In this document: positions 1 to 15,080 of the stretch, piece after piece
Position numbering within the stretch: the stretch's first letter is position 1
Layout of the letters: each line of letters starts with the position of its first letter
DNA from: a virus
Length of the DNA: 20,292 nt
Reading direction: 5' to 3' (one strand)
Virus record (IMG/VR): IMGVR_UViG_3300034642_000172
Span: 1 to 20,292 of that record
Program-made: the position numbers and the translations under genes
The notes under the pieces: generated by a model
What the model was told of the DNA's origin: nothing
What the model saw: only the letters and a program-made list of their open reading frames with translations
The model's database searches: none

Positions 1-1079
1 TTCATACCAGGATCAGCAGCAGTTTTTTCTTCTGCTACTACCTCACCAACCTTTGCAAGAGCACCCATGATGCCCTCATCAATTGCTTGAGGTTCTCTTT
101 CTTCGTAAACTTTAGAATAAGTTTCCAAGAGGGATGCTGCTCCCTTTCCTGTCATACGTTCCATTGGGTCTCCGTTTTTAAGTGGTTGTTTTTTCTCTAC
201 CTTTGCAGCAGGTTTTACTGTAGGTGTTGTAGTTGCACCAGTAGTGCTTGGAGCAGAATCCTTTACAGTAGGCGTTGCGGGTGTACCACCCTGTGCAGTA
301 ATACGAGCCTGTGATCTTGCTCTCATATCACGAATTTGCTGCAATCTATCAGCGATTGAAAGTTTAGGTTTAGCAGCAGGAGTAGCAGGAGCTGTTACAG
401 GAGCGGTAGCAACAGGTTTAGCAGCAGATGTTACAGGAGTGGCACCAACACGAGCAGCAGCACCAGCAGTTGTTTTTGGTCTGGCACTTACGGGAGTTTG
501 ATATCCACCAGGACCACTACCAGAGGCAGATTTGTTACTCATGACTCCTGGAATAGTCCGAGAATTATTAGAATTAGACTTGGCCAAATCTGCAGCAGAT
601 TTATATCCAGAGAAGTCCTTTTTGGCAGCACCTGCTGATGCCATTGCCTTACCATAACCTGCAGCCTGAGCACGTTCCTTTGGATCCTTGGAATATCTCA
701 AACGGTCATACTCTGCTCTAACTTTCTGTTGATCAGTAGGAGGTTTGGCAGTTGGTTGAGATACCTGAGCTGGTTGAGAAGTAGGAAGAGGATCTTCTCC
801 TCTAGATGCCCTTCTCTCATTTTCTGCTTTTATTTTTGCCGCTTCTTGATCTCTTTTAGCATCAGCAGCAGTATAGTTTGATCTAGAATTTTCTCTAGAA
901 GCAACTTCTCTTTGCTGCATTCTTTTTGCTATAAGACCTTCTGGATTTCCAGATTTTTTGACAAGTGCAGCAAACTCCTCATCACTCATTGATGCGTAGT
1001 CAGGAGTTGCCTGCTCACTATAAACCTGAGCAACTGCATCCATCATTGATAATACTTCTTTCGAACTAATCCTATCCAT
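1..1079 (-). CDS. Ala/Pro/Thr-rich cyanophage protein, 3' end cut by window
   Basis: The frame opens at an ATG at 1079 and runs 359 codons to the window edge without a stop, so the C-terminus is missing. The start lies two bases past the stop of the 52-aa gene (TGACAATG), which suggests coupled translation. The N-terminus (residues 1-25) is a short amphipathic segment containing MMDAVAQVYSE. A charged helical part follows (about 40-130), then a low-complexity Ala/Pro/Thr/Lys linker (about 195-300). A second similar segment, LLETYSKVYEE, lies at 317-327. No enzyme motif, signal peptide or membrane helix is visible. The composition and two LxETYxKVYE-like segments recall cyanophage proteins of unknown or presumed structural role. 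That is a resemblance from memory, not a family assignment. Function unknown; that it is a real gene is well supported by length and reading frame. Confidence 0.8.
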   Translation of the reverse strand, partial: MDRISSKEVLSMMDAVAQVYSEQATPDYASMSDEEFAALVKKSGNPEGLIAKRMQQREVASRENSRSNYTAADAKRDQEAAKIKAENERRASRGEDPLPTSQPAQVSQPTAKPPTDQQKVRAEYDRLRYSKDPKERAQAAGYGKAMASAGAAKKDFSGYKSAADLAKSNSNNSRTIPGVMSNKSASGSGPGGYQTPVSARPKTTAGAAARVGATPVTSAAKPVATAPVTAPATPAAKPKLSIADRLQQIRDMRARSQARITAQGGTPATPTVKDSAPSTTGATTTPTVKPAAKVEKKQPLKNGDPMERMTGKGAASLLETYSKVYEEREPQAIDEGIMGALAKVGEVVAEEKTAADPGM

Positions 1080-1081
1080 TG

Positions 1082-1240
1082 TCAATTCTCCGTAATGAGC
1101 TCAAACCACTGTTCGCTCATTCCTTGAATGATGGAATCTGCGGAATCAGAATCGGTTGCGTAACCTTCCTCAATGAGGTGTGTTACAACCTTTTCATAAA
1201 TTTCTTTTGTCTCTTTTAATTGCTTAGGGGAAGGTTTCAT
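1082..1240 (-). CDS. 52-aa small cyanophage protein (helical, unknown)
   Basis: ATG at 1240, stop TGA at 1084-1082, 52 residues, starting MKPSPKQLKETKEIYEKVVT. It looks like a two-helix acidic unit: a helix through YEKVVTHLIEEG, a loop YATDSDSAD, then a helix ending MSEQWFELI. The pattern (HLIEEGYA, about 15 residues, MSEQW) is one I recognise as a recurrent N-terminal segment of many T4-like cyanophage proteins; here it stands alone. The 333-aa protein at 3482-4483 opens with a similar helical segment. It is flanked upstream by a late-promoter-like box (AATAAATA) and downstream by the Ala/Pro-rich gene two bases away. No clear Shine-Dalgarno is seen. Function unknown. The gene is supported by tight packing, codon pattern and the family-like motif. 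Confidence 0.72.
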   Translation of the reverse strand: MKPSPKQLKETKEIYEKVVTHLIEEGYATDSDSADSIIQGMSEQWFELITEN

Positions 1241-1264: not shown

Positions 1265-1272
1265 TATTTATT
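1265..1272 (-). promoter_or_regulatory. Putative T4-type late promoter, 52-aa gene
   Basis: Minus-strand AATAAATA differs from the T4 late consensus TATAAATA at the first base only. It overlaps the stop of the 710-aa gene and lies about 25 bases before the ATG at 1240, leaving room for a short leader. One-mismatch boxes also occur by chance inside genes, so placement is the main support. Confidence 0.5.
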
Positions 1273-3404
1273 CAAGCGATAAGTTCAATAAACTCTCCCA
1301 AAACTTTCTTGTTCATCTTCTTGTTTTTCAAACTCTTTGCAAATGCAGACTTGATTTTTGCTTTGGTTGCTCCATAATCAACATCAAACTCAGAATCATT
1401 TGCAAGTGAATTTGCGGAGAGAGCAAAGTAAGTGTGATATCCAGAATCATAAAGTGAAAATGCACGCTCCTTTTTCCAAATCTTAATAGTTTTTTCTATC
1501 TTAACAGAGTTCCAATCACAAGAGCGTCGGATGAAACTATTGGCATCACGAGATTCAAGAAGACGAATACCAATGAAATTAACTTCAGGGAAAGTGTCAC
1601 GAATATCTTTGATAAAGATTTCAGTCATTTCCCACCAATCACAATCAAAAGAATAAGTATTACCAGTTTTACGATTTCTCAGAAAAGAATTGCCACCAAG
1701 AGTTCCGATACCAAGAAAAGGTTCTACTTCCCAACGACGCTGAACTTCTTTGTGATACTTCATACCACCCGCTTCACCATCACTCAGAACAACACACTGA
1801 ACTTTCTGAACTTTGTTCTCTTTCTTAAAATGAGGAATCAGTTGGTGCAGAGAAATAAACGCTTCATTGAGAGGAGTTCCAGAAAGACTCAAACCAGTAG
1901 GAATGGGAATATTTGACCAGTGATTAAAAGTCCAAGCAAGACGGAAGAAGTTTTTCATCTGCTGCTCAAGATCTTTCATCTTGGTTTTACTGGTGAAGAT
2001 GTTCATCATAGAGAACCACTCATTCACAGCAATAAGACCTTCACGCTTCTTGTAAGCATAACCTTTTACTTCTGGATTACCATCTTCATTAGTGACGATC
2101 TTAGGATACTCATTTGTAAAAGCATAAACCTCAAAAGGAATGTTCACTTTCTTACAGAACCACATAAGATTGAACAGTTGCTTCAAAGTGTCCTGAAGAA
2201 CAGTACCCATTGAACCAGACCAGTCCAGAACAAAAATCAGACCATGATTTTTGCCATCAGCAAGAGTAGTGACTTTCTTGAAAAGATCTTCATTGTACTT
2301 GTAGGTATGAAGTTTAGAACAATCTAGCACACCAGTACGAGCAGTAGTGGCACGAGCGTAAGAGTCTGCTGCTTTTTTGCACTCAAACTCTTTCACAAGA
2401 TAGTTGACTTCTTTCTGAGCAGAACGTTTGAACTTTACAAATTCATTATCAATATGATAAAAGACTTCATCCTTAACAAGTCCTTGTCTATCCATCCACT
2501 CATCCCATTCAGCAAATCGTCCATGAATTTCAGAGTTATCAACAACAAACTTATTGATTTCAAGTTTGGGAAGTTCAACATAAACGTTCTCCATGCCATC
2601 CATTGAAGCAAGTTGTTTGATTGCTTCTTCCAAATTATTCATCGTGGAAACTTCTAGTTCATCATTGTTGGTTCCGCCATATGAGTCACTCTCTCCAGGT
2701 TCTTCAGATTCCCACGAATCTGTTTCCTGTTCAATAGAATCATTATATTCACCTTCTTCCATTCCTTCACTTTCTTGTTGAGGAACTTCTGAGATATCAT
2801 TGCTACCTTCTTGACCCCCTTGCATTTGCAAGTCATCAACCTTGGTTTTCATTTCTTCCTGACACTTACAGAAATCATAAAGTTCTTTAGAAACTTGCAG
2901 AACATCGTCAAAAGTCTCAGTATCAGCAATCTTCTGGCAAAGTTCTTTTTCATTGTCTTCAAAAGGAACTTCCACAAAGTTACCAATCTTGAAATACAGG
3001 TTTGCTTTATCGGCAAGATTCATAGTGCTGACATCATCATCAGCAATATCAAAGAAATCGGCATCAGACAGTTCTTTATATCCACGATAAAAAGTCTTAG
3101 AGATACCAGCATATCGACGCTTCATCAGTTTCTCAATGCGAGCATCTTCTACTACATTGACGAACTGTGGTGGAATCTTGATTTCTTTCAACCAGTTGCG
3201 GTCAGGAGTGTAGAGAGCATGACCAACTTCATGACCAACCAACATATCATACACCTCACCACTTGCACGATCCCACATCGGCAGAGTCAACACACGAGTA
3301 TGAACGTTGAAACAAGCAGTCTCCACTTTCTTATGCTCAACCACCAGGTCTTCAGTAGCAAGTAGTTTGGCAAGTTGAGACTTGATTTCGTGGGAAACGG
3401 TCAT
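1272..3404 (-). CDS. HExxH metallopeptidase-like plus VWA protein, CobT-like
   Basis: This is a 710-residue protein with three visible parts. Residues 1-150 carry an HEVGH zinc-protease-like motif (58-62) followed by VVEDARIEKL (84-93), whose Glu86 could be a third metal ligand. Residues about 198-250 are strongly acidic (Glu/Asp/Ser). The C-terminal half has a VWA domain with a MIDAS motif DWSGSMG (394-400), then FEVYAFT and VVLSDGEAG. The order (EDARxE segment, acidic linker, C-terminal VWA) matches the CobT subunit of aerobic cobaltochelatase and DUF2201-type metallopeptidase/VWA proteins. T4-like cyanophages commonly carry a cobS-like MoxR AAA+ gene, and MoxR ATPases work with VWA partners; pairing with it here is inference. 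The frame also opens from a TTG at 3434, but that codon lies in a terminator T-tract, so I start at ATG 3404 (MTVSHEIKSQ). Proteolytic or chelatase activity is unproven. Confidence 0.85.
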   Translation of the reverse strand: MTVSHEIKSQLAKLLATEDLVVEHKKVETACFNVHTRVLTLPMWDRASGEVYDMLVGHEVGHALYTPDRNWLKEIKIPPQFVNVVEDARIEKLMKRRYAGISKTFYRGYKELSDADFFDIADDDVSTMNLADKANLYFKIGNFVEVPFEDNEKELCQKIADTETFDDVLQVSKELYDFCKCQEEMKTKVDDLQMQGGQEGSNDISEVPQQESEGMEEGEYNDSIEQETDSWESEEPGESDSYGGTNNDELEVSTMNNLEEAIKQLASMDGMENVYVELPKLEINKFVVDNSEIHGRFAEWDEWMDRQGLVKDEVFYHIDNEFVKFKRSAQKEVNYLVKEFECKKAADSYARATTARTGVLDCSKLHTYKYNEDLFKKVTTLADGKNHGLIFVLDWSGSMGTVLQDTLKQLFNLMWFCKKVNIPFEVYAFTNEYPKIVTNEDGNPEVKGYAYKKREGLIAVNEWFSMMNIFTSKTKMKDLEQQMKNFFRLAWTFNHWSNIPIPTGLSLSGTPLNEAFISLHQLIPHFKKENKVQKVQCVVLSDGEAGGMKYHKEVQRRWEVEPFLGIGTLGGNSFLRNRKTGNTYSFDCDWWEMTEIFIKDIRDTFPEVNFIGIRLLESRDANSFIRRSCDWNSVKIEKTIKIWKKERAFSLYDSGYHTYFALSANSLANDSEFDVDYGATKAKIKSAFAKSLKNKKMNKKVLGEFIELIA

Positions 3405-3425
3405 TGCTTGGTTGCGTATGAACCT

Positions 3426-3431
3426 ATTATA
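3426..3431 (-). promoter_or_regulatory. Possible -10 box before the HExxH/VWA gene
   Basis: A perfect TATAAT lies on the minus strand directly after the T-tract of the terminator and about 22 bases before ATG 3404. No good -35 is found 16-18 bases upstream, because that sequence is the terminator stem. It may restart transcription as an early-type promoter, or be chance in an AT-rich spot. Confidence 0.35.
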
Positions 3432-3432
3432 C

Positions 3433-3457
3433 AAAAAAAGAGGGTCTCACGACCCTC
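3433..3457 (-). terminator. Rho-independent terminator after the 333-aa gene
   Basis: On the minus strand the arms GAGGGTC and GACCCTC (3451-3457 and 3440-3446) form a 7-bp GC-rich stem closed by a GTGA (GNRA-type) tetraloop, followed by seven T (3439-3433). It lies 24 bases past the stop of the 333-aa gene and ends transcription started at the late box at 4504-4511. The arms match those of the terminator after gene 23. Confidence 0.92.
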
Positions 3458-3481: not shown

Positions 3482-4483
3482 TCACTCACCCTTAAGTTTG
3501 GTATTGTATCTTCTACCACGCCAGGTAAACTCTTTCTTACCTGCCTTTCTAGCAGCGGCAAAAGTTTTATCAAAATCAGCGGCAGAATTTCTTCTGTTCT
3601 CAGCATCTGCCTTTGCAATTTCTTGCTTCTCCTTATTCACTTGAGCAGAACGCTCACCAGTTGGTTCTGGTTTTGGTTGAGATGCTGCTTGTGTTTCTGC
3701 TTTCTGCTGAGCAAGTTTTTCAGATCTTTGCTGAGCAAGTTTTTCAGATCTTTGCTGATCTCTTTCTAAACGTCGTGCAGCACTATCCTTGTTAGCCTTA
3801 TCAACCACTGCACCAGTTAGACCAACACCACCAGTAACTACACCCGCAGTTCCAAGAGCAGTCATTGCTTTTTTAACTTTCTTTACAGCACCAACCACAC
3901 TATCTGCTTTTGCTGGTTTAGGAAGAGATGGTGCAACTCTTTGTGGTTGTGCCTTGAGAGTTGGCATACTTCTTTGAGATGCCCTACCACCAGACACGGC
4001 AAAACCTTTAGTATTACCAGGAAGTCCAAGATTAGGATTTCGTGTAATGTTTCTCAAATCCTGTGCTTTATCAGACATACCAGGAATTCTCATCTGTCCT
4101 GGAGTTTGAACTGGATTTGCTTTTGGTTGTGGAAGTTTGGAACTTGCAGCAGGAACTGGACTGGTGCCAGTAAATGGGGTTCTTCCGCCAGTAAAGTTTT
4201 GTGCCTTACCTGATTTGGTTAGAAGATTTCCTTGAAGAGGAGTTCCCTGAACTTGCTTTACAACTTGCTTTACTGCCTTTTTAGCACCAGGTTTTTTAAG
4301 AACACCCGACATATATCCAACTGTTCTGAGTATATTCAGGAATGCTTTACCTTTATTTTCGGTAATCAACCCATACTCATGAATATTATCTTCGTAGAGA
4401 TAGTTAACGACTTCGGTCGCTTCATCTTCATCAATACCCCTCTCAATAAGATATTGATATAGTTCTTCGTAAAAGTTCTCCAT
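3482..4483 (-). CDS. 333-aa cyanophage protein with C-terminal Phe/Trp motif
   Basis: The modules are visible but the function is not known. Residues 1-40 form an acidic helical unit (YEELYQYLIERGIDEDEA). Residues 60-205 are basic, Gly/Pro/Ser-rich and disordered-looking. Residues 206-228 (AMTALGTAGVVTGGVGLTGA and on) are a Gly/Ala-rich hydrophobic segment that could insert in a membrane. Residues 235-300 form a charged coiled coil with two tandem RSEKLAQQ units. The end, 304-333, has FAAARKAGKKEFTWRGRRYN, a C-terminal pattern I recall from unrelated cyanophage proteins. A perfect late promoter precedes it and a strong terminator follows, so it is probably a single-gene late unit. Late expression, the membrane-like segment and the basic disordered region would suit a virion-internal or ejected protein, but this is inference. 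Start ATG 4483 follows a weak GTAGAG ribosome site. Confidence 0.85.
   Translation of the reverse strand: MENFYEELYQYLIERGIDEDEATEVVNYLYEDNIHEYGLITENKGKAFLNILRTVGYMSGVLKKPGAKKAVKQVVKQVQGTPLQGNLLTKSGKAQNFTGGRTPFTGTSPVPAASSKLPQPKANPVQTPGQMRIPGMSDKAQDLRNITRNPNLGLPGNTKGFAVSGGRASQRSMPTLKAQPQRVAPSLPKPAKADSVVGAVKKVKKAMTALGTAGVVTGGVGLTGAVVDKANKDSAARRLERDQQRSEKLAQQRSEKLAQQKAETQAASQPKPEPTGERSAQVNKEKQEIAKADAENRRNSAADFDKTFAAARKAGKKEFTWRGRRYNTKLKGE
3705..3758 (-). repeat. 24-bp tandem repeat, 2.25 copies
   Basis: Two identical 24-base units (3705-3728 and 3729-3752) are followed by the first six bases of a third. The unit length is a multiple of three and encodes the octapeptide RSEKLAQQ twice within a charged coiled-coil stretch of the 333-aa protein. 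Copy number may vary between related phages through slippage. Confidence 0.9.
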
Positions 4484-4511: not shown

Positions 4512-6227
4512 TTAATCACATACTTTCTTAGAGAATCCTTTAATCTTGTCAAACTTGATTGTACTCTCAAACTTATCCTGCAAGTCCGTCTTATGAGAGA
4601 TCACAAAAATGTTTGCATCTTTAATTACATAACGAATAATCTTAAGGAACTCATCAGTTCCAAACCCATCAAGAGAAGAGTCAAAGACTTCATCCATAAT
4701 CAGCAGGTTGGTATTTACAGAGTTTTTGACACGCGCTACTTCACGCCAAGTGAAGAGAAGGGCAAGGTCGATTCTCATCTTTTCACCTTCGCTAAAGGAA
4801 CTATACGAAAAATCTTCGTGTATAGGGGACTTCACAGTTTCTTTGAATTCTTCGTCAAGATGGAAGTTGATATAAAAATCCATCATCTGAAGATAGCGAT
4901 TAACCTGCTGGTTAATGAACGGAAGATACTTTTTAATAATCTTCGTTTTTACACCATCATCCTTAAGTAAGGAATAGGCAAAATCGTGATGAACAATTTC
5001 TTGTTTTTTATCTGATAAGTATTCAATTGTCTGTTGGAGATTGGATTTAAATTCGTCTAACTTTTCATGTTCAGAATTTCGGTTTGCAAGGTTCTCGGTA
5101 ATTGTTTGAATTTCATATTCAAGATCTCGGATTTGTCGTTGATTTCCACTAACCCGAGTATTATTTTGAGAAATGCCATGCGTTAGATTCGTAATCTCCT
5201 GCGAAAGTGAATTAAATTGACGTTCTCTTTCTTGTTCAAACTTAATGGTTGATTCCAACTCATCGAAACCTTCCTTTAGTTCTTTTGCCGTATTTTGAAC
5301 GTCATCAATTTTATTTAACCGGAACGACTCTTCTATATCCTGGGTACAAGTAGGGCATACCGTATTTTCAACAAAGAATTTATGTTCTTTAGTAACTGCA
5401 GATACTTTTGCAGACAATTTACCACGAAGTGTGTTTAGTTTTGATAACTTTTGTCTAGCACCTGCAACATCTTCTTGCTTCTTTGTAGTGTTTTCTAAAT
5501 TTTCTTGAAGTTTAGTATTTTCTTTAATATACTTATCAACCTCGTTCATAAGTTTTGTAATCTTAGTATTATTTCCTTCAATATTCTGTTTACCGCGATT
5601 TTCTAACTCATCAATGAAGTTTTGTTGCATCTTCATTTTATCTTTGAGAGTTTCTTTCTTCAGATCCATAGATTTAACCTGATCTTTCTGAGTTCTCAAC
5701 TTATCCTTGAGAATGTTATTCATCAGAGAAAAGATACGGATATCCAGCAAGTCTTCAATGACTTCACGGCGATTTGCACATGTTAACTGCATGAAAGGTA
5801 CAAAAGTGCTGCTACCCAGAATAACAATCTGAGTAAATGACTTATAGTTTACTTTAAGAATATTATCTTCTAGAACACGTTGCATTGCACGGTCATCTGC
5901 TTCACGATGCAACTCAACTCCATTTACAACGATGTCAAACACATTAGGTTTTATACCCCGTCTAACAATATACTGGCGAGTATTAATTTCAAACTCAATC
6001 TCTACCAAACAATCTCTCTCATTTTGAGAATTGACTAGTTGAGGTTTGTTGATCTTACGAAAAGGTTTATTAAACAGAACAAAAGTTAGTGCATCCAGCA
6101 TTGTGGATTTACCTGCACCATTTGTTCCGATAATCAAATTGGTATTACTTTCTTGAAAATCAATCTCAGTAAATTGATTGCCCGTAGAAAGAAAATTTTT
6201 CCACCTAATTTTTTGGAAAGTTATCAT
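4512..6227 (-). CDS. 46: gp46 recombination endonuclease subunit (Rad50/SbcC-like)
   Basis: This is the ATPase subunit of the gp46/gp47 complex, which resects DNA ends for T4-type recombination-dependent replication and helps degrade host DNA. At 571 residues it is close to T4 gp46 (560). Walker A is GTNGAGKST (34-42), the Q-loop is near Gln133, and two long coiled-coil arms flank a zinc-hook CPTC (291-294). The ABC signature is FSEGEKMR (478-485), Walker B is LLIMDE (508-513), and a switch histidine lies in ISHK (545). All key residues are present. The ATG at 6227 lies inside the end of the oxygenase gene (23-base overlap) with no Shine-Dalgarno, so translation is probably coupled. It is separated from its partner gene 47 by two inserted small genes. 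A late promoter for the next unit abuts its stop. Confidence 0.97.
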   Translation of the reverse strand: MITFQKIRWKNFLSTGNQFTEIDFQESNTNLIIGTNGAGKSTMLDALTFVLFNKPFRKINKPQLVNSQNERDCLVEIEFEINTRQYIVRRGIKPNVFDIVVNGVELHREADDRAMQRVLEDNILKVNYKSFTQIVILGSSTFVPFMQLTCANRREVIEDLLDIRIFSLMNNILKDKLRTQKDQVKSMDLKKETLKDKMKMQQNFIDELENRGKQNIEGNNTKITKLMNEVDKYIKENTKLQENLENTTKKQEDVAGARQKLSKLNTLRGKLSAKVSAVTKEHKFFVENTVCPTCTQDIEESFRLNKIDDVQNTAKELKEGFDELESTIKFEQERERQFNSLSQEITNLTHGISQNNTRVSGNQRQIRDLEYEIQTITENLANRNSEHEKLDEFKSNLQQTIEYLSDKKQEIVHHDFAYSLLKDDGVKTKIIKKYLPFINQQVNRYLQMMDFYINFHLDEEFKETVKSPIHEDFSYSSFSEGEKMRIDLALLFTWREVARVKNSVNTNLLIMDEVFDSSLDGFGTDEFLKIIRYVIKDANIFVISHKTDLQDKFESTIKFDKIKGFSKKVCD

Positions 6228-6735
6228 GATTAAAATAATTAAAATTCAGAACAATTCTTCTTTTTTTATTAGTACAACTAGTTCCAGTATGTTTGAGTGA
6301 AGAATCAAAAGTAATCATCCTATTTGCAATACTTTCTATTATATCACCATTTTCAAACTCAGTAAATCCATTATTAGTATTCATATAAAAAATAGATGTT
6401 TTACAACCAGGTAATTTAACATCAGTATGAAATCCATATTTAAAAATAGAATTCATTCTAATTGTAGAATTTGCCTTTGCCTTTACAATATGCTTCATAT
6501 TCAAAGCATCAATAAAAGCTTGTATATTCACATTACTAACTGGTTTATTAAAATTATAAAGTGGGTGAATATATTGAAAATCATCTAACTCATTAAGTTC
6601 ACTACCATATTTCATTCCTTTTTCAGTTTTAAATTCATTCCAATACCATACAAATTTGCTAGAAAAGAAAAAATCTGATATATCTAAAAATAAATCTTTT
6701 GGGAGAAAATTATCAATAATTTTAATATTCTTCAT
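6205..6735 (-). CDS. 2OG-Fe(II) oxygenase family protein
   Basis: This 176-residue protein has the signature of a 2-oxoglutarate/Fe(II) dioxygenase: the metal triad HTD (His103, Asp105) and His149 in SLKHTG, then a basic pair (Arg159/Arg160) placed to bind 2-oxoglutarate, ahead of the beta-strand IVLNFNYF. The segment between (KTSIFYMNTNNGFTEFENGD) looks like the double-stranded beta-helix core with a typical turn. Several small proteins of this fold are known in T4-like cyanophages; their substrates (protein side chains, nucleobases or other) are mostly unknown, as here. It overlaps the DUF3110 gene by 14 bases upstream and gene 46 by 23 bases downstream. Its base composition looks clearly more AT-rich than gp46 and gp47, which would fit later insertion between the two recombination genes. 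Confidence 0.87.
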   Translation of the reverse strand: MKNIKIIDNFLPKDLFLDISDFFFSSKFVWYWNEFKTEKGMKYGSELNELDDFQYIHPLYNFNKPVSNVNIQAFIDALNMKHIVKAKANSTIRMNSIFKYGFHTDVKLPGCKTSIFYMNTNNGFTEFENGDIIESIANRMITFDSSLKHTGTSCTNKKRRIVLNFNYFNHDNFPKN

Positions 6736-6988
6736 TCTTAGGTGGAATTACAATGTCATTCGGTGTAACTACAGCATACTTATAATTATATCGTTTACAT
6801 GTGAGAATAGCAAGTGCATCATCAACCTCCACAACATCCATCTCTGCATCTTCATCTTCTTCTAAATGCATTGCATAACGCTCAGCATCATCTTCTTCCT
6901 CAAATAAAAAAAGGACCTTCTCACCATATCGATTTTGTACGGCATAAGCACCGTCCTCTTTACTATCTCTTAGGGTAAGAAGAAACAT
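6722..6988 (-). CDS. DUF3110-like small protein
   Basis: This 88-residue protein starts MFLLTLRDSKEDGAYAVQNR. The core (a strand with VLFLFEEEDDAERYAMHLEE, then an acidic stretch and VVEVDDALA) matches my memory of DUF3110, a small domain found mainly in cyanobacteria, with the typical LF.SEDDA.RYA..LE pattern. Its function is unknown in hosts and phages. The frame extends to a TTG at 7003, but ATG 6988 is preferred: it forms a TAATG overlap with the gene 47 stop and has a strong GAGGTGGA ribosome site just upstream. It sits between genes 47 and 46, so it is expected to be co-transcribed with them. Its conservation there would suggest a link to recombination or to takeover of the cyanobacterial host, which is speculation. 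Confidence 0.85.
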   Translation of the reverse strand: MFLLTLRDSKEDGAYAVQNRYGEKVLFLFEEEDDAERYAMHLEEDEDAEMDVVEVDDALAILTCKRYNYKYAVVTPNDIVIPPKNEEY

Positions 6989-8028
6989 TATTCCACCTCG
7001 CAAGCTTGTGAATAGACTTTCTGAAGGATTCCTTTAATAATTGTTTTGTCACAATCAAATTCTGCTTCTTCAATGTAACGATTCAAAATTGAAATTGTAT
7101 TTTCACTTTCTTCAACTTCAAAGTCTTCATTTTCTTGAATTACAAAGTTTTCTACAATTTTTAAATCTTGAATACCACAGGAATGTAATTTATCTATAAA
7201 TTTTTCAAACTTCTTAGGTTCGGTTTTCTTCTTAACAATGACTTTTACAATTTTACCTTCATATTCAGTAGTATCAAATACTTGGTAAGGAGTATCTTCA
7301 TAATATACGTTATAGAACATTCGATATGGATTATTGATAGGAGTATGTTCTAGAGTGTCCGTATCAAAGATATTAAATCCTCGGGGATCATTTACATCAT
7401 TCCAAAACATCTCATAAGGATTGCCTAGGTAGAAGATTTTTCCGTTGTCGCTCCGTGTATGGTAGTGTCCTGAAAACACTTTGTCGAACTTCTCAAATAA
7501 GTCGCACGCCATACCTTCTTCCATGACGTGTCCGCGATGCGCTCTAAATCCGTTGAGCTCAAGGTGCCCCATCGCACATATGCTATCAGAAACTTTGATA
7601 GCGTTGACAGAATCCTGATAGTTTTCCGCATTGATCCATGGAATAAACAGTACATTAAGTTTATCTAACACAACCTCAGTGCATTCTGAGTAAACTTCAA
7701 CATTCTTATATTGTTTAAGCAACAAATCTACAGAATTAATGGAGTTCGTATCTTTATAGTATGCAGTGTGATTGCCAACAATGGTGTGAACGGTCACACC
7801 CATCTTTTCTAGTTTATCGTAATAATTTTCTTTTGCCCATTCCAAAGACCATAAATCGATACTTCGACGATTGTCAAAGGTATCTCCCATATCCACAACA
7901 GTGGTAATATTGTGTTCTTTCAAATATGGAAAAAATACGTCATCATAAAACTTTTTAAAGTATTCATGAAGGAACTTGGAACCCTTACGAGCGCCAAAGT
8001 GTTGATCAGTAATAATTGCAATCTTCAT
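6988..8028 (-). CDS. 47: gp47 recombination endonuclease subunit (Mre11/SbcD-like)
   Basis: This is the nuclease subunit that works with gp46 in DNA-end processing and replication-recombination. At 346 residues it is near T4 gp47 (339). The calcineurin-like phosphoesterase motifs are all present in order: DQH (8-10), DMGDTFDNRR (46-55), GNHTAYY (85-91), GHLE (154-157) and GHYHTR (187-192). These provide the two-metal site. The ATG at 8028 overlaps the gp55 stop as ATGA, and the stop overlaps the DUF3110 start as TAATG, so genes 55, 47 and the DUF3110 gene look like one translationally linked operon. Confidence 0.97.
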   Translation of the reverse strand: MKIAIITDQHFGARKGSKFLHEYFKKFYDDVFFPYLKEHNITTVVDMGDTFDNRRSIDLWSLEWAKENYYDKLEKMGVTVHTIVGNHTAYYKDTNSINSVDLLLKQYKNVEVYSECTEVVLDKLNVLFIPWINAENYQDSVNAIKVSDSICAMGHLELNGFRAHRGHVMEEGMACDLFEKFDKVFSGHYHTRSDNGKIFYLGNPYEMFWNDVNDPRGFNIFDTDTLEHTPINNPYRMFYNVYYEDTPYQVFDTTEYEGKIVKVIVKKKTEPKKFEKFIDKLHSCGIQDLKIVENFVIQENEDFEVEESENTISILNRYIEEAEFDCDKTIIKGILQKVYSQACEVE

Positions 8029-14429: not shown

Positions 14430-15080
14430 TCAAAGATTTGAGAGGAAATTGTCGAATAAATTCAACTTATGCTCCTCAAGTGCTCTTTGATCAACAAGAG
14501 TATTAATTCTCTTCTTAGTTTGTTCTGCAAGTTGTTCACGAAGGATTCCTCCTTCCCAAACCCACTCTTTTCCTTCCATGATTCCATTAACAAAAGCGTC
14601 AGGAGCGGAAGGGTCAGCGACAATATCAGCAGCAGTTGCTAACTGGAAATCTTCACCGACAACTTTATGTCCTTCACTTGTAGTTTGGAGTGAACCAACA
14701 CCACGAGAAGAAACACCAAGCATTACACCTTCATCAAGAAGTGAAGATGCGATTTTACCCATAGGTGTAGAAAGGATTTGTGCCTTTCCTCTAAAGTTAT
14801 TACCTTCTTGTACCAGAGAAGTAATTTTGTGAGAAACACGATCAAGATTGACGGTAGGACCATCAGGGTGACCGAGTTCGCCAAGGGCACGACCCTTATT
14901 GACGAATGTTTCGTTGTAACGACCTACTTCACGAGCAAGGGTTGACATGGGATACATTCTCCCATTGCGATTTTTAATTTCGCCTTGAAGAAATACACCT
15001 TCAATGTATAACTTCTTGTTTGCACCCTTACCTTCGGTAAGAATCTTTACGTTTGTTACTTCTTCTGTGATAAGTTTCAT
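14430..15080 (-). CDS. 21: gp21 prohead core serine protease
   Basis: This is the maturation protease that cleaves the scaffold, core and capsid proteins after (L/I)xE. It has 216 residues (T4 gp21 212). A herpes-assemblin-like triad is suggested by ALGELGHPDGP (His71) or VSHKI (His84) with VSSRGVGSL (Ser124/125). The segment DIVADPSAPDAF (152-163) is characteristic of the family. NRNGRMYP (38-45) is another conserved turn. The start, ATG 15080, lies four bases past the previous gene's stop with a weak AAGAAA ribosome site. Confidence 0.96.
   Translation of the reverse strand: MKLITEEVTNVKILTEGKGANKKLYIEGVFLQGEIKNRNGRMYPMSTLAREVGRYNETFVNKGRALGELGHPDGPTVNLDRVSHKITSLVQEGNNFRGKAQILSTPMGKIASSLLDEGVMLGVSSRGVGSLQTTSEGHKVVGEDFQLATAADIVADPSAPDAFVNGIMEGKEWVWEGGILREQLAEQTKKRINTLVDQRALEEHKLNLFDNFLSNL

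Follow-up and report, generated by a model that had tools for sequence, protein, structure and literature searches.

A CobT-like zincin/VWA protein and its CobS partner in T4-like cyanophages: a candidate MoxR-VWA machine encoded beside replication genes

The window, i.e. the whole stretch of 20,292 nucleotides of IMG/VR record IMGVR_UViG_3300034642_000172 that was analysed, is a fragment of a T4-like (Kyanoviridae-type) phage genome, with profile matches for a tail sheath, a portal, an UvsW-like helicase, a late sigma factor, gp47 and gp46, the other head genes being placed by synteny with P-SSM2. Positioned with head/tail genes on one side and replication genes on the other, a minus-strand open reading frame (1272-3434) encodes, from an ATG at 3404, a CobT-like protein of 710 residues. 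The first-pass annotation had placed the gene correctly at 1272-3404 and left its strand unstated; as the plus-strand translation of this stretch contains stops throughout, the gene lies on the minus strand. It is flanked by two minus-strand genes, one cut by the contig end and coding for at least 361 residues, the other at 3482-4483 and coding for 333 residues. Both products are long, of low complexity and rich in A, P, K and Q, and neither matches a PHROG family. A further minus-strand frame, 6205-6735, may be akin to the 2OG-Fe(II) oxygenase genes that P-SSM2 and Mosig carry in the vicinity of gp46/gp47.

Table 1. Features of the cobT-like locus (window coordinates).
Feature	Position	Strand	Remark
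Downstream gene, between cobT-like gene and cobS	1..1085	-	cut by contig end; 490-aa frame in L004
CDS, CobT-like metallopeptidase-type/VWA protein, 710 aa	1272..3404	-	phrog_459 'peptidase'; stop codon included
VWA domain, about residues 384-630	1515..2255	-	
MIDAS motif 3 SDG (D542), residues 541-543	1776..1784	-	
MIDAS motif 2 SGTPLNE (T510), residues 508-514	1863..1883	-	
MIDAS motif 1 DWSGSM, residues 394-399	2208..2225	-	
Helical middle region, residues 253-351	2352..2648	-	conserved EVNYLVKEFEC
Acidic linker, residues 190-249	2658..2837	-	low confidence, probably disordered
N-terminal zincin-like domain, residues 1-195	2820..3404	-	
EDARIEK, residues 86-92	3129..3149	-	candidate third ligand E86/D87 on helix 79-97
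HEVGH, residues 58-62	3219..3233	-	putative zinc site on helix 49-65
gp46 (SbcC-like recombination nuclease subunit)	4512..6227	-	conserved upstream neighbour
gp47 (SbcD-like subunit)	6988..8028	-	profile match
gp21 head protease	14430..15080		P-SSM2 synteny

The window protein is an additional member of an already described phage protein family and architecture. The profile of phrog_459, labelled 'peptidase', matches it over its full length (residues 3-710, E 5.3e-264). Members of this family occur in 463 of 50,697 phage records, which are cyanophages apart from a few pelagiphages and individual phages infecting Ochrobactrum, Stenotrophomonas and Pseudoalteromonas. With the phrog_459 proteins of Kyanoviridae, e.g. 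T4-GC 146 of P-SSM2, it shares family, gene order, HExxH and MIDAS, and it differs from them by sequence divergence only, the best annotated phage protein, from S-SRM01, being 61% identical. Searches of PDB sequences gave no match, neither with the window protein alone nor with a 27-sequence profile. An IncH-type VWA protein and the Ochrobactrum phage protein, used as queries, found no relatives among the viral contigs, i.e. these lineages are single records.

All motifs that the first-pass annotation had listed, namely HEVGH, EDARxE, an acidic linker and DWSGSMG (residues 394-400), are present, the linker being about 60 residues long instead of the roughly 50 claimed, and residues 186-252 contain 33% D/E and 3% K/R. 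The MIDAS is complete (D394/S396/S398, T510 and D542). From its composition, 0.027 HExxH motifs would be expected in the protein by chance. Among 149 full-length relatives from viral contigs, HExxH together with a downstream NxxED is found in 148, the exception being truncated at its N-terminus, DxSGS occurs in all 149, and TPL, which contains the MIDAS Thr, as well as [TS]DG occur in 146 each; judging by this conservation, the motifs are under selection.

A second viral group, comprising phages of about 110 kb and phage-plasmids, is only 15-23% identical to the window protein in an alignment of the N-terminal domain (N-domain). In the 83 N-domains of both groups, where second-group members were restricted to those having HExxH, the columns P42, H58, E59, H62, N83, E86, D87 and G100 are invariant, i.e. 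HExxH is combined with a candidate third ligand on the following helix, as expected for a zincin. In the whole second-group set HExxH occurs in 68 of 80 proteins, a number which includes at least one chance match elsewhere in the chain (L202) and which is biased in that one pattern used in the search sits just before HExxH, although it excludes HExxH itself. The haloarchaeal virus HCTV-2 encodes a protein, gp79, with HEMEH...NVLED plus DLSGSM. Conversely, a group of Acinetobacter phage-plasmids (L085, L232-L249) has QEVAK in place of HExxH while MIDAS and the linkage to cobS and dnaE are retained, so that the protease site was apparently lost, and two other contigs have HEVAR instead. HExxH is therefore not a universal feature of phage VWA partners, the Thermus P74-26, Methylobacterium plasmid, Acinetobacter and hairong proteins being devoid of it.

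The predicted full-length model has a mean pLDDT of 77, with linker residues 196-248 below 50, and places HEVGH and EDARIEK on two successive helices. Its best PDB fold match is the VWA domain of NorD in the NorQD complex (E 4.7e-4), and the MIDAS domain of MDN1 is also listed. Modelled alone, the N-domain reaches a pLDDT of 88, and its leading, although weak, fold matches in the PDB are ArdC, selecase and PprI (E 0.05 to 2, best TM 0.33), all of which we take to be HExxH proteins, selecase being a minigluzincin. The N-domain is probably a metallopeptidase arm of minigluzincin-like type. For the earlier suggestion of a protease, the sequence evidence, i.e. motif and metal-site conservation, is strong and the evidence from the fold at most moderate, catalysis being a putative activity.

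How is this protein related to cellular CobT? Pfam CobT (PF06213/PF11775) gave no match to the window protein up to E 1, and TIGR01651 was absent from an NCBIfam scan as well as from the window record. Nevertheless, the protein is connected by reciprocal PHROG links to phrog_1576, phrog_5298 and phrog_17276, and members of phrog_1576 match phrog_459 as well as Pfam CobT_C (5e-100) and CobT (2.6e-23). Profile-profile comparison of the N-domain with the phrog_1576 group yielded 98.5% in hhalign (E 2e-15), whereas a NorD-like control, which lacks HExxH, had none of these links and matched no PHROG family. A Sphingomonas CobT, which matches cobaltochelatase CobT (PDB 9uka) at 1e-210, can be aligned co-linearly over the whole length (phage DARIEKLMKRRYAGI versus CobT TARIEALGARGYAGI). 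The CobT-like domain order proposed at first pass is therefore supported, and the matches are not confined to unrelated VWA families. In contrast, DUF2201, named alongside it, and CoxE gave no Pfam match, the only hit to the window protein being LPD22 with E 0.039, below the cut-off.

Taken together, the window protein is, as judged from these alignments, a distant homologue of CobT. Like the CobT of CobNST it combines a co-linear N-domain, an acidic linker and a MIDAS with a CobS partner; unlike the phage protein, the aligned cellular CobT, the one cellular sequence aligned in full, has no HExxH at the corresponding place and N-IDGE where the phage protein has SGTPLNE with its MIDAS Thr. As direct profile membership failed and the conserved site differs, we do not file the window protein as CobT. 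The CobT of SSU5-type phage-plasmids (phrog_1576) shares with the phage protein a homologous N-domain with HExxH...NxxED, the linker, the VWA domain and a downstream CobS, but differs from it by its strong match to CobT/CobT_C, by NVDGE in the VWA domain and by the dnaE that follows.

The partner gene lies just off the left end of the window. A contig that is 99.97% identical to the window over 6758 bp (L003) extends past this end and includes cobS, with about 1.85 kb separating it from the cobT-like gene upstream, and in a second one (L004, 98.6% identical) the order is gp46, the 333-aa gene, the cobT-like gene, the 490-aa gene, cobS, gp45 and gp44, comparable to gp47, gp46, 'peptidase', small genes, cobS, gp45, gp44, gp62 and gp43 in P-SSM2. 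Of 160 related viral contigs searched, all 139 with enough downstream DNA have cobS downstream on the same strand, 9-2238 bp away (median 381), and the 21 without cobS each have less than 1.7 kb of downstream sequence. The record counts of CobT-like protein and CobS, taken as a check of co-occurrence in cyanophages, are equal (365 for Synechococcus phages, 61 for those named 'Cyanophage' and 24 for Prochlorococcus phages). Hence, the first-pass expectation that the phage CobS has a VWA partner is borne out, the CobS/MoxR gene on which it depended being present; the pairing has also been published (PMC8651126).

Phage CobS contains AAA_5 and CbbQ_C above the Pfam cut-offs, and each of the 104 full-length matches has retained Walker A, Walker B and a putative arginine finger. 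Its closest PDB sequences are midasin, CobS, NorQ and CbbQ, and it matches the solved CobS with E 6e-22. Based on its sequence, phage CobS is a MoxR/CGN-type AAA+ protein, and the locus has the make-up of a MoxR-VWA system, i.e. an AAA+ protein with Walker A, Walker B and arginine finger adjoining a VWA protein with a MIDAS. The same combination of a MoxR/CGN AAA+ protein and a VWA partner is found in NorQD and CbbQO.

We observe this pair beside replication genes in two phage groups, which is new here. In Kyanoviridae contigs with enough sequence, gp46 lies upstream in 83 of 87 and gp45/gp44 downstream in 45 of 47. In the second group cobS follows the cobT-like gene in 75 of 75 cases and is itself followed by dnaE, coding for DNA polymerase III alpha, on the same strand in 62 of 62, a linkage that holds across CobT identities down to about 28%. 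Individual genomes add further neighbours of this kind, e.g. primase, helicase and polymerase downstream of the pair in ICP2, and a DNA ligase before and dnaE after it in Pseudomonas phage hairong. On a large E. coli plasmid (L087 4848-10545) MoxR, DUF3150 and a VWA protein with HEAAH...CEDLRIE adjoin ssb, recT and a lambda-type exonuclease, and in Thermus P74-26 MoxR, a VWA protein without HExxH and three small genes precede DnaB. No annotated replication gene adjoins the pair in HCTV-2, and in none of the examined neighbourhoods did we see cobalamin genes. All these are raw counts of adjacency, and T4-like gene order is generally stable and replication genes are common in phages; the adjacency is a lead, not proof, and the linkage in T4-like phages may reflect inheritance. 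In Pseudoalteromonas phage XG4 the VWA and HExxH domains are encoded by two separate frames, VWA first, followed by a CobS-like frame that seems to lack the N-terminal Walker A part (L093 3851-5065, 5059-6108, 6483-7403) and, 2 kb on, by a clamp-loader-like AAA+ gene.

Thus, based on our findings we speculate, with a probability of about 0.6, that the CobT-like protein acts as substrate adaptor in a MoxR-VWA machine of the phage with a zincin arm, whose target is likely to be a replication or recombination complex. CobS would form the hexameric motor. By analogy with CbbQO, NorQD and midasin, binding of CobS and/or a carboxylate of the target may fall to the VWA domain, whose MIDAS is complete, and the acidic linker may serve as tether. 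In CbbQO, CbbO with its VWA domain acts as substrate adaptor, and mutation of the MIDAS leaves the complex intact while activity is lost (PMC4660213). The zincin-like N-domain probably binds zinc and can probably cut, or at least grip, the protein delivered by the motor. The most tentative step is the target, for which protein complexes that act in phage DNA replication, in recombination or in clamp-dependent late transcription are the likeliest candidates, since the pair is fixed beside replication/recombination genes in two phage groups. As a leading guess we rank a replication-module protein first, virion assembly second and cobalamin third. The first-pass idea of a MoxR-VWA machine that remodels a protein complex instead of making cobalamin is favoured by hosts and neighbourhood, though not proven by them.

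A reading compatible with any of these roles, and one we consider rather unlikely, is that the HExxH domain is a pseudo-protease whose bound metal would serve only structure or the recognition of a target. The degenerate motifs QEVAK and HEVAR, of the Acinetobacter group and of two other contigs respectively, and the lack of the motif in the aligned cellular CobT imply that the family works without catalysis somewhere; in the Acinetobacter group with its QEVAK, the protease step would be dispensable. However, neither the two His nor the catalytic Glu vary across Kyanoviridae and most of the second group, and a purely structural site would not need E59.

Somewhat less probable is a chaperone-protease for virion assembly, where head or tail proteins would be the substrates that the pair assembles and trims. 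For the MoxR and metallopeptidase-vWA pair of group 2.2 jumbo phages, which by description has the same domain architecture and partner, such a role has been proposed by analogy with Acidianus two-tailed virus (PMC7824862), unlike the replication reading preferred here, and in the window gp18-gp23 lie on the same strand as the cobT-like gene, about 8-17 kb upstream. The immediate neighbours, however, are recombination/replication genes in two phage groups, including the dnaE that invariably follows the second-group pair, and T4-like phages already have the gp21 head protease. In its accessible text, the virion proteomics of S-CREM1 reports 14 proteins, four of them structural and the rest unknown.

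It is improbable, in our view, that the pair is a cobaltochelatase helper, i.e. that phage CobS and CobT work with host CobN, or in place of ChlI/ChlD, and raise cobalamin for nucleotide synthesis, as proposed in PMC8651126. True homology to CobT and CobS exists (TIGR01650, E 6e-21, besides the solved CobS), a Prochlorococcus genome has two PF02514 proteins, as expected for ChlH plus CobN, and 60 sampled relatives have no CobS, so that the phage pair could fill a gap; the only picocyanobacterial CobS match comes from the genome that gave phage contig L099. A hijack of host CobN is thus possible for cyanophages. On the other hand, the TIGR01650 match of phage CobS reaches only 75 bits against a cut-off of 559 bits, the window protein lacks a CobT profile match, the aligned cellular CobT lacks the HExxH site, and the examined neighbourhoods show no cobalamin genes. 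Among 14 control genomes, PF02514 (CobN) has matches in 5, E. coli and Caulobacter not being among them; despite this lack of a CobN match in E. coli, the pair is present on SSU5-type phage-plasmids from E. coli, Klebsiella and Salmonella, and Caulobacter has CobS and CobT above the cut-offs. Moreover, pelagiphages carry the pair, whereas their SAR11 hosts lack MetH (PMC12478193). The window protein is therefore probably not a cobalt chelatase subunit, and cellular orphan CobST may have a non-cobalamin role, too. In Sphingomonas, cobS-cobT (L184 5982-8813) adjoins BolA and J-domain genes, not cobalamin genes.

Least probable is a host-directed protease or anti-defence factor, with the motor passing a host protein to the metallopeptidase arm for cleavage: the nearest N-domain folds include the anti-restriction protein ArdC and the protease PprI, and the pair also occurs on large plasmids, but the fold scores are weak, no defence-gene neighbours were seen, and anti-defence genes are usually variable, unlike this gene with its fixed presence in essentially all examined Kyanoviridae.

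The pairing, the mis-annotation and the MoxR plus metallopeptidase-vWA architecture are already published (PMC8651126, PMC7824862). Liu et al. 2021, in the accessible part of that paper, describe cyanophage cobT as usually mis-annotated as peptidase and cobST as part of the cyanophage core (PMC8651126); their reading is cobaltochelatase, and the HExxH site is unmentioned in that part. Pelagiphage cobT is listed in PMC7029224. New here is the invariance of HExxH...NxxED across two distant viral groups together with its presence in a haloarchaeal virus; in the open-access literature we found neither this cross-group invariance nor the replication linkage of the pair, and no experiments on the phrog_459-type CobT-like family. 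The name cobS denotes two unrelated proteins, the AAA+ subunit of cobaltochelatase and cobalamin-5'-phosphate synthase (TIGR00317) (PMC2984593, PMC4303638), and the description of phage cobS as catalysing the final cobalamin step (PMC2984593) fits the latter instead.

More broadly, and only as a tentative and rather doubtful extension, phage and plasmid CobS-CobT pairs might be a widespread replication-module machine of bacterial and archaeal viruses and not B12 genes, with the CobT of cobaltochelatase as a derived relative that lost the protease site. cobS is counted as a cyanophage auxiliary metabolic gene, and ecological surveys take it as a sign of phage-boosted vitamin B12; these inferences are wrong if the replication module in fact contains the pair as a protein-remodelling protease. 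If our proposal is true, it would suggest kinship of cobaltochelatase CobT with an active protease, and some of the commonest marine viruses would have a testable role for two of their core genes.
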